A program made the translations under genes and the position numbers. From Candidatus Omnitrophota bacterium (lineage in GTDB: Bacteria; Omnitrophota; Omnitrophia; Omnitrophales; Danuiimicrobiaceae): DNA of 33,364 nt. Below, in pieces: positions 572 through 25,105 of the stretch (positions within the stretch are counted from its first letter, which is position 1; each line of letters opens with the position of its first letter). The DNA lies in contig JACOVU010000004.1 in the NCBI GenBank assembly GCA_016177155.1, positions 1 to 33,364 of the forward strand. The letters are read 5' to 3'. Below the pieces are notes generated by a model. The model was given only the letters and a program-made list of their open reading frames with translations. It did no database searches and had not been told where the DNA came from.

Positions 572-1586
572 AGGTTATCGCATGCCTGCTGAGTGGGAAC
601 AGCATGAAGCCACATGGCTTGCTTGGCCTCACGATTTGGAAACTTGGCCTCGTGAGATTGTGGATTTAGAGTCCACCTACGTGGAACTGATCGATTATCT
701 CCATGGTGGAGAAAAAGTCCATATTTTGGTTCAGGATGAAGAAGTCGAAGCGTCCATGTCCGGGAAACTTTACCAACGAGGGATTACGAAAAACGTTTGG
801 CTTCACGTGATTGAAACAGATAGCCCTTGGATTCGGGATTACGGTCCGACCTTTGTCATCAAAAAAGGAGCGCGCGCGCTCATTCGTTGGAAATTTAATG
901 CCTGGGGAGAAAAATATAAGCCTTTTCACCACGACAGTTCAGCATCTAAACAGATGGCCAAGGAAGTAAATGTCCAGGAGTTTCGAATGGAAATGATTTT
1001 AGAAGGAGGTTCGATTGACGTGAACGGCCAAGGCACTTGCCTGACCACAGAAGAATGCCTGTTAAATCCTAATCGAAATCCAACTTTAAAACGAGTGGAA
1101 ATCGAAAAGCACTTGGAGAATTTCCTCGGTATCAAACATGTGATTTGGCTTAAGAAAGGAATTGAAGGGGACGATACCGACGGCCATGTCGATCAAGTAG
1201 CAAGGTTTGTTAACCCAACGACCATGGTCGCGGCCTATGAAGAAGATTCAAAAGATCCAAATTTCAGCCGGCTCGAGGAGAATGTTAGGATTCTCACTCA
1301 GGCTTGCGATCAAGACGGGAAAAAGCTGAACGTCGTTACGATTCCTATGCCGGATCGAGTAGAGCATGGGGGCACTCGCTTTCCCGCAAGCTATGTCAAT
1401 TTTTACATTGCTAATCAGTATGTGTTCGTTCCTATTTTTGGGGACGAACAGGACACCAAAGCGCTCGGAATCTTGAAGAGCTTGTTTCCAAGCCGAATGG
1501 TGGTTGGTATTCCAGCCATTCCTTTGATTTATGGTCAGGGCGCGATTCATTGTATGACGCAACAAGAACCTGCGGTGGTAGGATGA
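561..1586 (+). CDS. aguA: agmatine deiminase
   Basis: MPAEWEQHEATWLAWPH...WIRDYGPTFV...EGGSIDVNGQGTCLTTEECLLNPNRNP...GQGAIHCMTQQ: conserved agmatine deiminase motifs including the C-terminal catalytic Cys. Start is TTG 558 or ATG 561. Confidence 0.95.
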   Translation: MFTKGYRMPAEWEQHEATWLAWPHDLETWPREIVDLESTYVELIDYLHGGEKVHILVQDEEVEASMSGKLYQRGITKNVWLHVIETDSPWIRDYGPTFVIKKGARALIRWKFNAWGEKYKPFHHDSSASKQMAKEVNVQEFRMEMILEGGSIDVNGQGTCLTTEECLLNPNRNPTLKRVEIEKHLENFLGIKHVIWLKKGIEGDDTDGHVDQVARFVNPTTMVAAYEEDSKDPNFSRLEENVRILTQACDQDGKKLNVVTIPMPDRVEHGGTRFPASYVNFYIANQYVFVPIFGDEQDTKALGILKSLFPSRMVVGIPAIPLIYGQGAIHCMTQQEPAVVG

Positions 1587-1701
1587 TCCCACCACCTGCT
1601 TTACCGCTGCCAAAGGCAGCGAACTCCCGACGGAAGCAAGAGCGCGCTTTGTTGGGAACGTTTAAAATTGAAAGCGCGCTCTTGAAAAGCAGGTGGTTGG
1701 G
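1587..1701. mobile_element. ATGA-flanked palindromic-ended element, copy A (115 bp)
   Basis: Left ATGA 1583-1586 then TCCCACCACCTGCTTTAC; right AAAAGCAGGTGGTTGGG then ATGA 1702-1705. Internal hairpins: CGCTGCC-AAA-GGCAGCG (1605-1621) and CAAGAGCGCGCTTT/AAAGCGCGCTCTTG (1637-1650/1671-1684). Confidence 0.75.
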
Positions 1702-2631
1702 ATGAAAATTAAAAAGTTCAAAACCCGGACGGTCGAATTAGCCCAATACTTCCTATTCCGCTTGGTTTGTGTGTTCGTGGATCTACTTCCTTTTCGTTTG
1801 GCCTGTTCTTTGGGGAAGTGGATCGGATGCCTTCTTTATCTCGCTCTTGGGCGGTCCAGGGAAGTGGCACTGGAAAACTTAAATCAAGTTTATGGAAATG
1901 AAAAAACCGATTCTGAAATCAAAAAGATTGCCATCCAATCATTCGAAAACTTGGGGATGTTTGCGGTTGAATTCATTCGCATCCCAAAAATTTTAAATCA
2001 GCTGGATCGTTACGTCGTCATTCGAAATGAAGAATCTGTTTTGGAAATGCTCCAGCAGAAAAGAGGTGTCGTTTTAATTGTTTCTCATTTCGGAAATTGG
2101 GAATGGATGGGCGTGACCGCAGGCGCTCGCGCTCAGGAGAAAGGAATTAAAATTAACGCCGTTGCGAGAACGCTTGGGAACCCCTTTCTTTATCGGTATG
2201 TGGTCGAGAAACTTCGTGGGGCAACAGGGCTTCAGACGATGAATAAAAAAGGTGCGGCACGCGAAACCATGAAACGACTTGAGCAGAACGAAATTGTTTG
2301 CATTTTAATCGATCAGCATGAACGGAACGCAAGCGTTCCTGTCCCATACTTTGGAAGGCCTGCTTGGACCACTTCTTTACCTGCGGTTTTGGCCATTCAG
2401 CAAGGCGTTCCGATTATTCCTGTTTTTTCATTTCGACAAAAAAACGGGCCTATGATTGTCGATTTGGGAGAACCGTTTCCGGTCATTGACACCGGTGATT
2501 ATGACCGCGATGTGATCGAAAATACGAAACAATATATGCAGGCGATCGAGCAAGTCGTGAGAAAACGGCCGGGTGATTGGCTTTGGATGCATGCAAGGTG
2601 GCGCGCCTCCCGTACCGAAAAAGTGAGGTAA
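1702..2631 (+). CDS. LpxL/HtrB-type lysophospholipid (lipid A) acyltransferase
   Basis: VVLIVSHFGNWEWMG motif, DQHERNASVPVPYFGRPAWTTSLPA, WLWMHARWR. ATG at 1702 is preferred over GTG 1693 because of its position at the element edge. Confidence 0.87.
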   Translation: MKIKKFKTRTVELAQYFLFRLVCVFVDLLPFRLACSLGKWIGCLLYLALGRSREVALENLNQVYGNEKTDSEIKKIAIQSFENLGMFAVEFIRIPKILNQLDRYVVIRNEESVLEMLQQKRGVVLIVSHFGNWEWMGVTAGARAQEKGIKINAVARTLGNPFLYRYVVEKLRGATGLQTMNKKGAARETMKRLEQNEIVCILIDQHERNASVPVPYFGRPAWTTSLPAVLAIQQGVPIIPVFSFRQKNGPMIVDLGEPFPVIDTGDYDRDVIENTKQYMQAIEQVVRKRPGDWLWMHARWRASRTEKVR

Positions 2632-8965: not shown

Positions 8966-9070
8966 TCCCCCACCACGGCAAGTCTTGTTAAATTATAGTT
9001 TTCATTACTATAATAGGTTACGTTAGACATAGCAGATGATGTTAAATTTTACGAACTCGGGTGGTGGGGG
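8966..9070. mobile_element. ATGA-flanked palindromic-ended element, copy B (105 bp)
   Basis: Left ATGA 8962-8965 then TCCCCCACCAC; right GTGGTGGGGG then ATGA 9071-9074. Inner ATTATAGT-tttcatt-ACTATAAT. Contains CGTTAGACATAGC (9021-9033), also found at 14979-14991. Confidence 0.72.
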
Positions 9071-10276
9071 ATGAAACGCATCGTGATTGTTCCCGATGGC
9101 GTAGGAGATTGGCCGCTTAAAGAATTAGGCGGAAAAACTCCTCTCGATGTTGCACAAAAACCCAACTTGGATGAACTTTCGCGGAATTCCATTTTGGGGA
9201 CGCTCAAAACTTGTCCCGACGGGATGTATCCTGGAAGCGACGTCTGCGGTCTTTCCTTGATGGGTTATGATCCCAAAGTTGGTTATACGGGGCGCGCCCC
9301 GCTTGAAGCGGCGAACATCGGGATTGTGCTCAAGGCGGGCGAGCTTGCATTTCGATGTAACCTTGTGAATGAAGAAAATGGTATTCTCACTGATTATTCT
9401 GCCGGTCACATTTCAACGGAAGAAGCCGATCTTCTGATTCAAGAACTTCAAAGGAAACTCGGCACAAACCTTATTTCCTTTCATACCGGCAAAATGTACC
9501 GCCACATCATGTGGCATAAGCGCTCAAGTGATCTGGAGGTTCAAACCGATCAGCCTCATGATTTTCAGGGAAGTCCCTATGCCGAGCATTGGCCAAAGGG
9601 TAAGGGAGCTCAGATTCTGGTGGAACTGACTGAGAAGTCTAAAAAGATTTTATTCGATCATCCCGTTAATCGCGAGCGTGTCATAGAAGGGAAGAAACCT
9701 GCTAACATGATTTGGTTTTGGGGTGGCGGCGGAGCACCAAAACTCGAACCCTTTGAGAAAAAATACGGTCTTCGAGGAGGCGTCATCTCTGCGGTGGATT
9801 TGCTCAACGGTCTCGGTCGTTATCTCGAATGGGAAATTATTTCTGTTCCTGGCGCGACGGGTTATTTTGACACCGACTATGCGGCGAAAGGTCGTTATGC
9901 GATCGAAGCGCTCACGCGGCTCGACTTAGTTTTCATCCATGTTGAGGCGACGGATGAGGCAGGGCACGTTGGAAATTATAAAGAAAAAGTTCGAGCGATT
10001 GAAAATCTAGATCGCCATATTGTAGAACCTATTGTCGCTCACTTGAAAAAACTCCCTACTTGGAGACTTTTTGTCGCACCCGACCATTACACCCCCACTG
10101 TTAAAAAGACGCATGTTGCAGAGCCCGTCCCATTTATTTTCGCGGGTTCAGATCTTTCTTGTTCACGTTCCGAGCGGCCCTATACCGAGGCCGACTCAAA
10201 AGCAACCGGAATCGCACTGGACCGCGGTTACGAGCTGATGCTCCGACTGGTCAAAGGTTGGGCGCACTATGGATAA
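9071..10276 (+). CDS. apgM: 2,3-bisphosphoglycerate-independent phosphoglycerate mutase, archaeal (ApgM) type
   Basis: MKRIVIVPDGVGDWPLKELGGKTPLDVAQKPNLDEL; PGSDVCGLSLMGYDP; HVEATDEAGHVGN; APDHYTP. Confidence 0.92.
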   Translation: MKRIVIVPDGVGDWPLKELGGKTPLDVAQKPNLDELSRNSILGTLKTCPDGMYPGSDVCGLSLMGYDPKVGYTGRAPLEAANIGIVLKAGELAFRCNLVNEENGILTDYSAGHISTEEADLLIQELQRKLGTNLISFHTGKMYRHIMWHKRSSDLEVQTDQPHDFQGSPYAEHWPKGKGAQILVELTEKSKKILFDHPVNRERVIEGKKPANMIWFWGGGGAPKLEPFEKKYGLRGGVISAVDLLNGLGRYLEWEIISVPGATGYFDTDYAAKGRYAIEALTRLDLVFIHVEATDEAGHVGNYKEKVRAIENLDRHIVEPIVAHLKKLPTWRLFVAPDHYTPTVKKTHVAEPVPFIFAGSDLSCSRSERPYTEADSKATGIALDRGYELMLRLVKGWAHYG

Positions 10277-10306: not shown

Positions 10307-10324
10307 AGAAAGCAGGTGGTTGGG
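10307..10324. repeat. orphan right end of an A/D-type element
   Basis: GAAAGCAGGTGGTTGGG next to ATGA (10325-10328) matches the copy A right end (AAAAGCAGGTGGTTGGGATGA). Confidence 0.6.
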
Positions 10325-10328
10325 ATGA

Positions 10329-10518
10329 TCCCCCACCACTTTCCTGTACGTCATTGCGAGCGAAGCGCCGCCTTTGGCGAGCCTCGCCTTCGGCGGGAAG
10401 CAATCTTTGAGATTGCTTCGTCGTCCTGTACGGGACTCCTCGTCCGCCAGAGGACGGATCCGTCCGATTTTTGGTGGACAATGACAGGTTCAAGTTCTTC
10501 CAACAAAAGTGGTGGGGG
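10329..10518. mobile_element. ATGA-flanked palindromic-ended element, copy C (190 bp), carrying a nested repeat
   Basis: ATGA 10325-10328 then TCCCCCACCACTTT; right AAAGTGGTGGGGG then ATGA 10519-10522 (14 bp perfect inverted ends). Confidence 0.75.
10350..10485. repeat. GTCATTGCGAGCGAAGCG...CAATGAC dispersed palindromic repeat nested in copy C
   Basis: GTCATTG (10350-10356) / CAATGAC (10479-10485); GAAGCAATC-tttgA-GATTGCTTC core; resembles a widely seen bacterial intergenic repeat. Confidence 0.75.
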
Positions 10519-10821
10519 ATGAACCGTTTTACTCCGCTCTGGATTTTTCTTGTTATTTTTGTTCTAGGTGCAATTTATCTTCCAGGTTTTGCGAAGTATT
10601 TAAAACTCAAACGCAAGGATCAAGCGCTTTATCAAGAGCTTGAAGCGCTCAAACAGGAAATCGCGAAACTCGAAGAGGAAGAACATTTGCTCAAAACAGA
10701 TTTGACCAAACTCGAAGAAGCGGTTCGTCAGGAACTTGGACTTGTGAAACCTGGTGAAACAGTCGTTCGTGTCATTGAAGAAGAAATCCCCGCCGAGCCT
10801 CCCGCACCGAAGTCTACGTAA
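10519..10821 (+). CDS. FtsB/DivIC-like septum formation initiator
   Basis: Short protein: N-terminal TM helix (FTPLWIFLVIFVLGAIYL), then coiled coil and RQELGLVKPGETVVRV. Confidence 0.8.
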   Translation: MNRFTPLWIFLVIFVLGAIYLPGFAKYLKLKRKDQALYQELEALKQEIAKLEEEEHLLKTDLTKLEEAVRQELGLVKPGETVVRVIEEEIPAEPPAPKST

Positions 10822-12844: not shown

Positions 12845-14251
12845 ATGTGGGAGATCATCGAAGCTAATAAGAGGAAGTCTTTTTTCCTTTTAATCGGGAT
12901 GGGATTTTGTCTCATCACTTTGGGTTACGCGTTGGGTGAAGCTTTCTTTCCTCCCGAGGGCGGGATACTGGGCATTGCCCTGGCTTCGAGCATTTGGTTT
13001 ATCATGTCTCTTGTGAGCTTCTTCTCAGGAGATCAAATTCTTTTGTCGGTCAGCCGCGCTAAGGAAGTAACCCGGGAAATTCATCCACAGCTGTTCAATA
13101 TCGTAGAAGAAATGAAGATTGCAGCCCATCTTCCTGCCATGCCCAGAATTTTCATCATGGACGAAGAAGCTCCAAACGCTTTTGCGACGGGAAGAAAACC
13201 TGAACGAAGCGCTGTAGCGGTTACCACAGGTCTTCTTTCCCGCCTCAATCGTGACGAGCTTCAAGGAGTCATTGCTCATGAAATGTCTCACATCCTGAAT
13301 CGGGACATTTTGTTTATGACGCTGGCAGGCATTATGCTCGGGAGCATCGTGTTGATTTCAGATACATTTTTGAGAGTGAGAATTCGTTCGTCAGGTTCAT
13401 CTCCCAGGTATCGGGCGCGGAGTTCCGGTAGCGGTCAAGCGCAAGCCATCATGTTTTTGGTAGCACTTCTCCTTTTGATTTTGGCGCCGATCGCAGCGCG
13501 CCTGCTTTACTTTGCTCTTTCGAGGAGGAGGGAGTATCTTGCCGATGCGAGTGGAGCGCGTCTCACTCGGTATCCGGAAGGTCTTGCTTCGGCCCTTCAG
13601 AAAATTGCTGATTCCGTGGTCGAGCTTCCTACCGCCAACCGAGTGACCGCTCCTATGTATATTGTGAATCCGTTTGGCGCTCGCTCGATGGGCTTTTCGG
13701 GTTTTCTGAGTACCCATCCGCCCGTTCGTGAACGAATCCAAATTTTGAGAAGTATGGCAGGAGGCGCGAGCTATGCAAGTTACCAAAACGCGTTTGCTTC
13801 CGTGATGGGGAGGCACGTTCCGATTATTCCGCCTTCTGGACTTAAAGATGCGGGTGAAATTTCAGTCCGAAAGCCATCGGTCGAAGAGGCGAAAAAACAA
13901 GATGCAAAGAGCAAAGCGCGCGGCCTTGGGGATTTAACCAGGGTTCTAAATCAATTTGCCTTTTTAACTTGTGTGTGTGGACTCCGGATTAAAGTGCCGC
14001 CTGATTTCAAACAACCCAAAATTGTGTGTCCTAAATGTTTGACTTCGCTCCAGAATCCTTTTCAAGGGCGAGTTCAAGGTGGTGAAAACCTTCCCCAAGA
14101 ATACGTTCGCCAAAGCCACAACTGGGAATCTTTTTCCTGTCGGTGCGGGAAATTGATTCAGTTATCGCCCGCGTTTTCGGGATCGAATGTTGAGTGTACG
14201 AATTGCGGTCAAAAGATCCTCATCGAAAATGCGCTCGCCGTTCCCTCATGA
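12845..14251 (+). CDS. M48 family zinc metalloprotease with two C-terminal zinc ribbons
   Basis: GVIAHEMSHILNRD (HExxH), TM helices, HPPVRERI; C-terminal CVCG...CPKC and CRCG...CTNC. Confidence 0.92.
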   Translation: MWEIIEANKRKSFFLLIGMGFCLITLGYALGEAFFPPEGGILGIALASSIWFIMSLVSFFSGDQILLSVSRAKEVTREIHPQLFNIVEEMKIAAHLPAMPRIFIMDEEAPNAFATGRKPERSAVAVTTGLLSRLNRDELQGVIAHEMSHILNRDILFMTLAGIMLGSIVLISDTFLRVRIRSSGSSPRYRARSSGSGQAQAIMFLVALLLLILAPIAARLLYFALSRRREYLADASGARLTRYPEGLASALQKIADSVVELPTANRVTAPMYIVNPFGARSMGFSGFLSTHPPVRERIQILRSMAGGASYASYQNAFASVMGRHVPIIPPSGLKDAGEISVRKPSVEEAKKQDAKSKARGLGDLTRVLNQFAFLTCVCGLRIKVPPDFKQPKIVCPKCLTSLQNPFQGRVQGGENLPQEYVRQSHNWESFSCRCGKLIQLSPAFSGSNVECTNCGQKILIENALAVPS

Positions 14252-15219
14252 ATCTTAAACATTTCGTCTACCGCCTTGAATATGGATTCGTTCGGTTCAT
14301 GAGCGGATTTTTGGCGCTCCTCCCGTTTTCATTCGCTTTGAAACTCGCTCGACTCCTCGGGCGGTTTTTGTACGTTGTTTTCAGGAAGCCACGAAGGATG
14401 GCGCTTGAAAATTTAAGAGAGGCATTCCAAAGGGAAAAATCGGAACGTGAAGTTCATAGGATTGCACAAGGGGCTTTCATTCATCTTGCGGAATTTGGAA
14501 TCGAATGGCTCAGAATGCCCTACATGATTCAAAACCCTGAGCGGTATTTAATCGAAGTCTACCACAAAGATAAGATTCACAAAGCGCTTCAAGAAAAGAA
14601 GAAAGGAGCTATTGTTTTAATTGGGCATACGGGTAATTGGGAAATTATGGCGCTCATGGGAGGGCTTTTGGTTGCAAAGCCTGTCCAAGTTCCTCTATAC
14701 GCGGTTGCCCGGCCTCTTAAGAATCCTTATCTGTATGACTATGTGATGAAACTTCGTGGGGGGATGGGGCTTAAGACCATCGATAAGTCGGGCGGCGTTC
14801 GTGATACCTTTGACCGTTTGACGAAAGAAAATGCGATCGTTTGCATTTTGGTGGATCAACGTGTCAGCGAGGGCAGTGTCGAAATCAATTTTTTTGGTCG
14901 ACCTGCACTAACCACGAGTCTTCCCGTGGTAGCGGCGCTTCGCCTGGGAACGCCTATTTTCTTCAACTTTCTTTACCCCGTTAGACATAGCGCCCCGCGC
15001 TGCGGGATGTCTAACGGGGTTAACCGAACGTCCCATTATCGTTACGAGATGAAGGTGGAAGGGCCAATTACGATTGAACGAACAGGTGATTTTAAGCGGG
15101 ACATTCAAACGAATACGCAACACTTAATGGATCGGATTGAGCGAGAAATCAGGAAAGATCCTACTCGGTGGCTTTGGATGCACAACCGTTGGCGTGTTGC
15201 CCACGGTGCAAAAGATTGA
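14248..15219 (+). CDS. LpxL/HtrB-type acyltransferase, paralogue of 1702-2631, with an in-frame palindrome insertion
   Basis: AIVLIGHTGNWEIMA, FFGRPALTTSLPV, WLWMHNRWR. ATG 14248 overlaps the upstream TGA (ATGA). Confidence 0.87.
   Translation: MNLKHFVYRLEYGFVRFMSGFLALLPFSFALKLARLLGRFLYVVFRKPRRMALENLREAFQREKSEREVHRIAQGAFIHLAEFGIEWLRMPYMIQNPERYLIEVYHKDKIHKALQEKKKGAIVLIGHTGNWEIMALMGGLLVAKPVQVPLYAVARPLKNPYLYDYVMKLRGGMGLKTIDKSGGVRDTFDRLTKENAIVCILVDQRVSEGSVEINFFGRPALTTSLPVVAALRLGTPIFFNFLYPVRHSAPRCGMSNGVNRTSHYRYEMKVEGPITIERTGDFKRDIQTNTQHLMDRIEREIRKDPTRWLWMHNRWRVAHGAKD
14973..15022. repeat. in-frame palindromic element inside the acyltransferase gene
   Basis: ACCCCGTTAGACAT (14975-14988) / ATGTCTAACGGGGT (15007-15020) perfect 14 bp; inner CCCGC-gct-GCGGG. 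Half copy at about 30799-30826. Confidence 0.85.
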
Positions 15220-15657: not shown

Positions 15658-15781
15658 TCCCAACCACCTGCTTTTCTGCCGTTTCGTTCAGGTGGTTAGA
15701 TGATGAAACGGCAGGATTTCTTTCAGAAATACAAGAGCGCAGTTTCAAGATCGAGTGCGTTCTAGTAAAGCAGGTGGTGGG
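15658..15781. mobile_element. ATGA-flanked palindromic-ended element, copy D (124 bp), inverted relative to copy A
   Basis: ATGA 15654-15657 then TCCCAACCACCTGCTTTTC; right GTAAAGCAGGTGGTGGG then ATGA 15782-15785. Inner CTGCCGTTTC/GAAACGGCAG. Confidence 0.73.
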
Positions 15782-17176
15782 ATGATTCGCGACCAATTCC
15801 TCAAAACCATTCAGAAGTTTCGCATGATCGAAAAAGGCGAAACCGTTCTCATTGCTGTTTCGGGCGGGGCTGATTCAGTCGCGCTACTTCATTTGCTCGC
15901 AGAACTCCGAAAACCTTGGAAGCTTCATCTCACCATTCTCCATGTGAATCACAAGCTCAGGGGAAAAGAATCTGATCAAGACGAAGCGTTTGTGAGGAAA
16001 CTTGCGAGGCGTTTTAAGATTCCGATTTTTGTGTTCAAGGTTGAGGTAAGAAACAAAGCAAAGAAAGAAAAAAGTTCGCTTGAAGAGGCGGCACGTGAAG
16101 TCAGGTATCAATTTTTTGAACAAATGGCGGAGACGAAAAAGGCAAATAAAATTGCTTTGGCTCACAATCAGGACGATCAAGCTGAAACCGTTCTGATGCG
16201 TATCATTACCGGAACAGGCCTTCAAGGGCTTCAGGCGATTCGACCCAAGCGCAAATTGAACCGCACGTTCCTCATTCGCCCTCTCATTGAAATTGCGCGC
16301 GGTGATATTCGAAAGTTTGTGAAGGCGAACCAGATTTGTTTCCGAGAAGATCGGTCAAATCGATCACTTCAATTTTTAAGGAATCGAATTCGGTTGAAAC
16401 TTATTCCATTGATCGAACGCTCCTTCAATCCGCAAGTGAAAAAGGCGCTCGCAAGACTACCTCACTTGTTGGATGTCGACCTTTCGTTTCTTGAGGAAAC
16501 CTCAGCGGTTTTCTACAGGCGTCTTGCAAACAGAGAGCAAGCCGATGAAGTTTTATTTCCAAGAAAGTCTTTCCTTCAACTCAAGCCTTCCATCCAATAT
16601 CGTTTGGTGAATCGTGCCATGCGCGAACTGTCAGGCGCAGAACTTGATTTCAATCACTGGAATTTATTTTTAGAGTTGCTTACGACAAAGGATAAATTTT
16701 CGCTTCAACTTCCCAAGGAGCTTTTTATCTCACTTTCTCGGGAAGCGGTGCGGATCTATCAAAAAAGGAAAATATCACGCGCTTCATTTTCATATGAGTT
16801 TTCAGTCGGCGACTCCGTTTACATTCCTGAAATTAATTCCACCATTGTCTGCGAATCGCTCAACAAGCGAGTGCGTGTGATTCGAAAAACAAATAAAAAC
16901 TTTGATATTTTTGATGGAGACACACTTTCTTTTCCGCTCACGGTCCGCAATCGAAAGCCCGGAGATCGATTGCAACCCTTGGGGCAAAAAACTTCCGTCA
17001 AATTGAAGGGTTTTTTGATCAACCGGCACATCCCAATTGAAGAACGAGATCGACTTCCCATTGTTGTTTCAGACGGTCAAGTTGCTTGGGTTGGAGGAGT
17101 GGGGATGGGAGAAGCGTTCAAAGTGAGCGCCAACACGAAACGTTTTGTGCGAATTTCTCTCCTTCCAGGTAGTTAA
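15782..17176 (+). CDS. tilS: tRNA(Ile)-lysidine synthetase
   Basis: VLIAVSGGADSVALLHLL (PP-loop), HVNHKLRGKESDQDEAFV, ALAHNQDDQAETVLMR, RPLIEIARGDI. Confidence 0.95.
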   Translation: MIRDQFLKTIQKFRMIEKGETVLIAVSGGADSVALLHLLAELRKPWKLHLTILHVNHKLRGKESDQDEAFVRKLARRFKIPIFVFKVEVRNKAKKEKSSLEEAAREVRYQFFEQMAETKKANKIALAHNQDDQAETVLMRIITGTGLQGLQAIRPKRKLNRTFLIRPLIEIARGDIRKFVKANQICFREDRSNRSLQFLRNRIRLKLIPLIERSFNPQVKKALARLPHLLDVDLSFLEETSAVFYRRLANREQADEVLFPRKSFLQLKPSIQYRLVNRAMRELSGAELDFNHWNLFLELLTTKDKFSLQLPKELFISLSREAVRIYQKRKISRASFSYEFSVGDSVYIPEINSTIVCESLNKRVRVIRKTNKNFDIFDGDTLSFPLTVRNRKPGDRLQPLGQKTSVKLKGFLINRHIPIEERDRLPIVVSDGQVAWVGGVGMGEAFKVSANTKRFVRISLLPGS

Positions 17177-24018: not shown

Positions 24019-24163
24019 TCCCACCACCTCCCATACAAAAACATGCTCAGCCAATACTCGTAAGAAAAGGGGGACAGACTATAGTCTGTCCCCCTTTTCT
24101 TGAGAGGCATGTTTTTGAAACGCTTCGCGTTTTCCCCCTACGGGAAAGATGGGAGGTGGTGGG
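24019..24163. mobile_element. ATGA-flanked palindromic-ended element, copy E (145 bp)
   Basis: ATGA 24015-24018 then TCCCACCACCTCCCAT; right ATGGGAGGTGGTGGG then ATGA 24164-24167 (16 bp perfect inverted ends counting the shared A). Confidence 0.78.
24062..24101. repeat. 40 bp perfect palindrome nested in copy E
   Basis: AAGAAAAGGGGGACAGACTATAGTCTGTCCCCCTTTTCTT; flanked by AAAAACATGC (24037-24046) / GCATGTTTTT (24107-24116). Confidence 0.9.
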
Positions 24164-25105
24164 ATGAAGTTTGGTATTGGATTGCTCACTGAAAATTGGC
24201 ACTTGAAACTGATCTCGCTTATTCTTGCCATTGGATTTTGGTTTTATGTGGTCAGCGAAGAAAGTATTGAAGTGACCAAAACGATTCCTTTGGGAGTGCT
24301 TCCGCCCAATGAGAAATTGAGCGTGGTGAAAACTTCTGCTTCGCACCTGGAGGTTACGTTTCAATCTCCAAGGCATCTTTTTTCTGCTCTTTCGGCGGCA
24401 AACGTGACGGCTCAGCATAAAATTACAGGGACACAAAAGGCAGGAGATTACTCTTTTAATGTGAATCCAAGCGATTTCACGCTTCCCGCGCCTGAAATTC
24501 GGATCATTCGAATTTTTCCTTCTTTTGTCACCGTCACACTGGATGAGGTCATTGTCAAAAAATTGACGGTTCAAGTGGAATTTGTGGGAGAGCCCGCTTA
24601 TGGTTATCGGGCTGATCAGGAAGGGGTAGAATTAGATCCAGACGCCGTGTTGGTGGAAGGACCAAAGGCGATTCTTGAAAAAATGGACACCATTAAGACC
24701 GAACCGATCCAGCTTGTCGGTCGTGTCAGGTCTTTTCGCAGGACTGCACGGATTCGTTCCACCCCTGAACTTCGGGTAGTAGGAGACGGGATTACCGAGG
24801 TTCAAATTCCGATCAAAGCCGAGTATGCCGAGCGCGAACTTCCCGATATTTCAGTCAAGCCTTTTGGAGCACCTTCAGGAGATCATTATGCGATGGTGCG
24901 AACCGAGAAAGTTTCCGTTGTGCTTAAAGGCCCGCGTGCGATTTTGGATAAGTTGGTGGCGAGTGACCTGCTGGCTTATGTCGAGGTAGAAGGTCTTAAG
25001 GAAGGCGTGCACCAAGTTCCCGTGAAAATGATTTTGCCTCAGGATCTTACTCTAAAAGGTGATTCACCGCTTGCCGCTGTGGAAGTGAAAAAAATAAATT
25101 TCTGA
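24164..25105 (+). CDS. YbbR/CdaR-like protein
   Basis: N-terminal TM (NWHLKLISLILAIGFWFYV), repeated YbbR-like segments, follows cdaA. Confidence 0.88.
   Translation: MKFGIGLLTENWHLKLISLILAIGFWFYVVSEESIEVTKTIPLGVLPPNEKLSVVKTSASHLEVTFQSPRHLFSALSAANVTAQHKITGTQKAGDYSFNVNPSDFTLPAPEIRIIRIFPSFVTVTLDEVIVKKLTVQVEFVGEPAYGYRADQEGVELDPDAVLVEGPKAILEKMDTIKTEPIQLVGRVRSFRRTARIRSTPELRVVGDGITEVQIPIKAEYAERELPDISVKPFGAPSGDHYAMVRTEKVSVVLKGPRAILDKLVASDLLAYVEVEGLKEGVHQVPVKMILPQDLTLKGDSPLAAVEVKKINF

Follow-up and report, generated by a model that had tools for sequence, protein, structure and literature searches.

A short palindromic element between the agmatine deiminase and LpxL genes of an Omnitrophota bacterium belongs to a mobile family that inserts into start codons and may be mobilised by a GIY-YIG nuclease

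Results

The agmatine deiminase-LpxL junction carries a flanked inverted repeat

The window analysed here is a stretch of 33,364 nucleotides from a Candidatus Omnitrophota bacterium, and the genes flanking the repeat and the element copies described below lie on the forward strand. An inverted repeat is found, where a preliminary description had placed it, between a gene for an agmatine deiminase of the Porphyromonas-type peptidyl-arginine deiminase family (positions 561 to 1586; Pfam PF04371, 404 bits) and a gene for an LpxL-type acyltransferase (positions 1702 to 2631; Pfam PF03279, 172 bits) whose start matches that of its relatives. The repeat is 116 bp long (positions 1587 to 1702) and a 3-bp TGA is duplicated on either side of it, a feature absent from that description. 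The left TGA (1584 to 1586) is the stop codon of the agmatine deiminase gene. The right one (1703 to 1705) overlaps the ATG of the acyltransferase gene (1702 to 1704), the A of which is the last base of the repeat; the ATGA arrangement is indeed recreated, as had been proposed. Also absent from the earlier account is an open frame of 41 codons that spans the whole repeat (1583 to 1705), from the left ATG (1583 to 1585) to the right TGA, and whose deduced product would be MIPPPALPLPKAANSRRKQERALLGTFKIESALLKSRWLG.

The left arm TCCCACCACCTGCTTT (1587 to 1602) pairs with the right arm AAAGCAGGTGGTTGGGA (1686 to 1702) in a terminal stem of 16 bp, counted with a single bulged T. The right arm, previously given as GGTGGTGGG, actually reads GGTGGT-T-GGG and includes the Shine-Dalgarno (SD)-like sequence AGGTGG. 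The inner palindrome CAAGAGCGCGCTTT (1637 to 1650)/AAAGCGCGCTCTTG (1671 to 1684) is present as described and belongs to a long hairpin with CAAGAGCGC arms (1637 to 1684), preceded by a hairpin that is short and weak in this copy (1625 to 1634) and by an additional third one (1605 to 1621). The folding model agrees with the proposal that the left arm buries the SD, whose predicted unpaired probability was 0.09. With this arm held open, the predicted unpaired probability of the ATG rose from 0.34 to 0.77; the SD was still largely paired in this short folding model (0.16). With Rfam 15, only tRNAs scored above the gathering threshold in the window, and no known structured RNA family was detected at the element.

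Two peculiarities of the upstream gene were recorded. Its end, GGTGGTAGGATGA (1571 to 1586, ..AVVG*), resembles the right end of the element and is missing in relatives; similar ends occur at three other loci (L025, L058 and L059). It could be what remains of an earlier insertion, or it may reflect a target preference. In a related genome (G004), the agmatine deiminase gene (L111) contains an additional in-frame stretch, SLPRNDVIASIRR.., also missing from relatives.

The repeat belongs to a mobile family

We looked for further copies of the repeat. The sequence TCCCACCACC, with at most one mismatch, gave 11 matches in the window (1.4 expected), and the 17-nt terminus, with up to three mismatches, gave 128 matches in the 1.38-Mb genome compared with 5 for a reversed control. 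Copies were extracted from stretches around the terminus matches, and about 63 elements could be paired from their termini in the stretches fetched from this genome (G000). Among 67 candidate pairings, the duplication, read on the stop-giving strand, was TGA in 49, TAA in 11 and TGG in 1, the remainder being unequal duplications or false pairings. The analysis was extended to eight genomes, all of them fragmented metagenome assemblies and four of them from another family of the phylum. Identical duplications were required in this set, which removed false pairings (other register, unequal duplications) and left 148 copies. The patterns used to sample several of these genomes contained TGA, which biases the type of duplication found there and not the ORF context. 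The elements end in TCCC...GGGA inside identical 3-bp TGA or TAA flanks, and their terminal inverted repeats have 16-bp arms with 0 to 2 edits.

Empty sites were found in relatives. At the agmatine deiminase-LpxL junction the element is missing from three of them (G001, G004 and G007), and the two genes abut or overlap. A second copy of the window, between cdaA and ybbR (24019 to 24164), has an open frame, and its site is empty in six relatives; in G004, an unrelated repeat occupies exactly the same start codon. A third copy, located before tilS (15658 to 15782), also has an open frame and has no counterpart in G003. Two divergent copies of a TCCCCC type complete the set, one without clear inner hairpins before a phosphoglycerate mutase gene (8966 to 9071), the other before a DivIC gene (10329 to 10519) and preceded by the right end of a truncated element (about 10310 to 10325). 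It is practically certain that the hairpin is one of a family of mobile DNA elements, in some of which a small nuclease gene is present. Judged from sequence comparison, the window copy is a non-autonomous member of this family, which inserts into start codons.

Other palindromes were seen in the window. The divergent copy at 10329 to 10519 encloses a repeat of the TCATTGCGAGCGAAGCG.. type (about 10350 to 10430). A perfect palindrome around GGGGACAGACTATAGTCTGTCCCC (24057 to 24106) is nested in the long-hairpin loop of the cdaA-ybbR copy, and elsewhere contigs break inside this palindrome (ends of C3, C5 and C82). A CCCCGTTAGACAT palindrome (14972 to 15023) is embedded in another LpxL-type gene (14194 to 15219), within its coding region, and resembles an in-frame palindromic insertion.

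The element inserts into start codons and rebuilds them

The target is (A/G/T)TGA, the TGA of which is duplicated, so that ATGA becomes ATGA-TCCC...GGGA-TGA. The ATG is restored from the last A of the element and the duplicated TG, behind the SD-like AGGTGGTGGG; indeed, the right terminus before the ATG nearly always reads AGGTG(G/A)TGGG or AGGTGGTTGGG. The element thus supplies a replacement start codon and ribosome-binding site, and the invaded gene would still be translatable. In the genome under study, the right ORF starts exactly at the last A of the element in 45 of 50 TGA copies, and in 27 of the 50 (54%) the left TGA also ends an upstream ORF; among all TGA triplets of these sequences, the frequency of this joint arrangement is only 0.55%. 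The start-codon picture was alike in the eight-genome set, where 81 of 131 TGA copies have an upstream ORF that stops at the left TGA and the other 50 have no long one stopping there. The base before the left TGA was A in 124 copies, G in 4 and T in 3 (n = 131), meaning that GTG and TTG starts are also targeted and are converted to ATG on the right. When element flanks were compared, no strong motif appeared beyond ATGA, and SD enrichment to the left of the elements was only slightly above that of shuffles, so that a native ribosome-binding site for the element frame is at most putative. Altogether, we hold with high confidence that the family inserts into start codons with duplication of the target. 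Insertion rebuilds ATGA, and further copies stacked in tandem were found in the eight-genome set.

A frame through the element is preferentially open

For the frame that begins with the left start codon to reach the right TGA, the element length must be 2 modulo 3 and no stop may intervene. This length was found in 104 of 131 TGA copies (p = 4e-27) and the frame was open in 98 and not open in 33, compared with 36 of 131 when the elements were flipped in a control. The TAA copies, which do not lie at starts, were open in 6 of 30 orientation trials (Fisher, 3.7e-8) and do not maintain the length modulo 3 (6/15, p = 0.002). Insertion occurs in both orientations, with the long hairpin first in 48 copies (35 open) or last in 32 (27 open). 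When related copies were clustered and each cluster was counted once, the values were 56.0 open of 76 and 20.4 of 76 for the flipped elements. Within one ten-copy family, dN/dS was 0.79 and a single stop was found among 96 differences, showing that the frame is maintained more clearly than the peptide.

These data make it likely that the read-through frame is maintained by selection, and it may be partly inherited from coding ancestors. A second, unrelated repeat family was found in G004 (terminal inverted repeat TCCCGTTAGA, about 106 bp, about 27 copies; loci L269 to L298, for example L289 and L281). Its copies, too, are located at start codons, which they rebuild, and mostly have a closed leader frame of six to eight codons. 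Read-through is thus not a general requirement for such insertions, which weakens the claim made for the element.

Most copies share a predicted fold, whose arms stay complementary away from start codons

The copies share a common anatomy, namely the 16-bp terminal stem around three hairpins. This fold, a terminal stem with three branches, was predicted for 110 of 144 copies, with a median z of -4.4 for the inner region. In an alignment of 32 copies, 95.6% of the cells were paired and double-sided changes occupied 132 cells compared with 45 in shuffles. Almost all pair changes went from one Watson-Crick pair to another; G-U cells were few in the two long helices, and a large share of them was at the terminal pair. 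Perfect arms were present in 9 of 12 TAA copies and in 21 of 50 start-codon copies. The arms of the non-start copies being at least as complementary, the stem is not maintained by translational coupling, and from these alignments we infer that the covariation reflects pairing at the DNA level or homogenisation of the arms, and not an RNA device.

Full-length copies encode a GIY-YIG nuclease

In four full-length copies (G000 C78 and C70, G001 C130, G002 C138), the CAAGAGCGC hairpin loop is filled by a GIY-YIG gene. The frame of this gene begins at the left start codon, crosses the terminus as MIPPP.., MIPSP.. or VIPSP.. and ends in ..VVG* or ..VMG*; its stop lies in the right ATGA, which also provides the new start of the invaded gene. 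At G000 C78, the invaded gene encodes an NrdR-like protein, recognised from the protein start. The element-encoded nuclease scored 51 to 57 bits with Pfam PF01541, and its nearest solved structures are the UPF0213 proteins 1zg2 and 1ywl; NCBIfam gave it no name above cut-off. Residues Y16, Y27, G29, R36/R37 and E73 are invariant in the four copies. As dN (0.16 to 0.32) was lower than dS (0.80 to 1.38) in all six pairs, the gene is under purifying selection. More distant copies were found in G381 (C72, ending ..GVG* with an ATGA overlap) and in G208 (C42, ending ..VVG* with GTGA replacing ATGA). Full-length copies were thus recovered from several genomes, which represent two families of the phylum, and only the GIY-YIG gene lies between their ends; no IS5-like (TNA) or RAYT transposase gene was seen inside the elements. 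We consider it somewhat more probable than the contrary that the GIY-YIG protein is the mobilising enzyme.

Small GIY-YIG genes were also observed between inverted copies of quite different palindromes (L130, 1463 to 1813; L143, 1464 to 1813; L142, 1411 to 1770; likewise L122, L123, L132, L146 and L150), among them GTCATTCCCGCGAAAGCGGGAATC, which is CGTC-REP/dRS3-like. Inverted repeats bracket 12 of 27 small GIY-YIG loci and none of 211 control intervals.

Discussion

Taken together, the data are best explained by an element that inserts into start codons, is mobilised by its GIY-YIG nuclease and is read through by the ribosome, a reading to which we give a probability of about 0.6. The nuclease would cut at or near the element ends or the targets and thereby mobilise both full and short copies, its substrate being a folded single strand or a cruciform. 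A ribosome would initiate at the old start codon, translate through the element, opening the stem that buries the SD, terminate at the TGA and reinitiate at the overlapping ATG. The chain from gene A through ATGA, the element frame and a second ATGA to gene B would in this way remain coupled, and downstream expression would survive the buried SD. More tentatively, the family could represent a class of transposons defined by a GIY-YIG mobiliser, a cloverleaf DNA, start-codon targets, a borrowed host start and ribosome-binding site, and an ATGA hand-back with a start and SD of its own. Such an element would not alter the host protein and could re-enter the site it has rebuilt.

The main alternative is that the element is an ordinary MITE, mobilised in trans by a DDE transposase of the classical kind that leaves a TNA-type 3-bp duplication, a type known from the IS1031 group of IS5 and from PIF/Harbinger. 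The GIY-YIG gene would then be a passenger, and the start-codon sites with open frames would simply be those insertions that a compact genome tolerates. MITEs typically show terminal inverted repeats, 3-bp TRA duplications and short copies without coding capacity, and the TAA copies do lie outside start codons. Full-length copies from several genomes and both families nevertheless hold the GIY-YIG gene alone, and compensatory changes within an inner cloverleaf are not typical of passive MITEs, which leads us to regard this alternative as unlikely, at about half the weight of an even chance.

The preliminary description had proposed a dedicated RNA-level coupling device, in which the left arm is opened by a ribosome that terminates at its edge, and the SD thereby becomes accessible for initiation at the downstream ATG. 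The predicted burial of SD and ATG, the opening of the ATG once the left arm is blocked and the 81 of 131 TGA copies in which the left TGA ends an upstream ORF are in its favour. But the repeat is mobile, with dozens of copies and relatives whose gene-gene junction is empty; its arms are at least as perfect away from start codons, 50 of the 131 copies lack a long upstream ORF ending at the left TGA, and G-U pairs are few in the long helices. Termination at the left edge is, moreover, not the only course open to the ribosome, which can begin again at the left ATG, read the element and terminate at the right ATGA. We thus consider such a device very improbable, and coupling through ATGA as preserved, likelier by translation of the element. 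REPIN/REP-type palindromes moved by a RAYT (HUH tyrosine) transposase, evoked by the abundant, hairpin-forming and sometimes tandem copies, are hardly credible, since the elements have 16-bp terminal inverted repeats, a 3-bp duplication, ends without a GTAG or CGTC tag, and GIY-YIG as the gene inside.

Homing genes are often located in loops of structured introns. Like GIY-YIG homing endonucleases and small UPF0213-type proteins (PF01541; 1zg2, 1ywl), the element protein is a small GIY-YIG domain, but the intron is absent, the gene is read from the start codon of the invaded gene and the target is duplicated. Prokaryotic MITEs are short, have terminal inverted repeats and a target duplication, exist in many copies and are moved in trans (PMC10969869). 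The family resembles them in its terminal inverted repeats, identical 3-bp flanks and empty sites in relatives, and differs in three respects: it inserts almost exclusively into start codons, where start and SD are rebuilt; its interior has three hairpins with compensatory changes; and its full-length copies carry GIY-YIG in place of a known transposase. Rickettsia palindromic elements insert in frame and add residues inside host proteins (PMC10969869); here, too, palindromic mobile repeats carry a frame that would be translated alongside host genes, but as a separate frame between two ATGA overlaps, with the host start kept and the protein unchanged. REPs and REPINs with RAYT, and the GTAG and CGTC palindromes, are a further comparison (PMC3116915, PMC3733652), the CGTC REPs having been reported without a dedicated enzyme (PMC3733652). 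They too are hairpin repeats present in abundance, and some enclose the gene of a dedicated enzyme; they differ in their tags, in the absence of terminal inverted repeats with duplication and in RAYT taking the place of GIY-YIG.

In the literature searched, no GIY-YIG partner or start-codon insertion was found for MITEs, Rickettsia palindromic elements, REPINs, GTAG/CGTC REPs or dRS3 repeats. Work on the single-strand-specific GIY-YIG nuclease Ssn reportedly concerns Neisseria repeats; if it covers such elements, the GIY-YIG link would be less novel, and the novelty of start-codon insertion would be unaffected.

If the proposed reading is true, a selfish element enters compact operons with little damage by rebuilding the start codon and keeping the translational chain. 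It would provide a candidate enzyme for families of palindromic repeats that have no known mobiliser, such as the CGTC REPs, and orphan MIPPP...VVG mini-ORFs, together with a share of small GIY-YIG genes, would be parts of mobile elements. GIY-YIG genes between other palindromes would imply a broad and unrecognised mode of mobility, possibly including that of the CGTC REPs.
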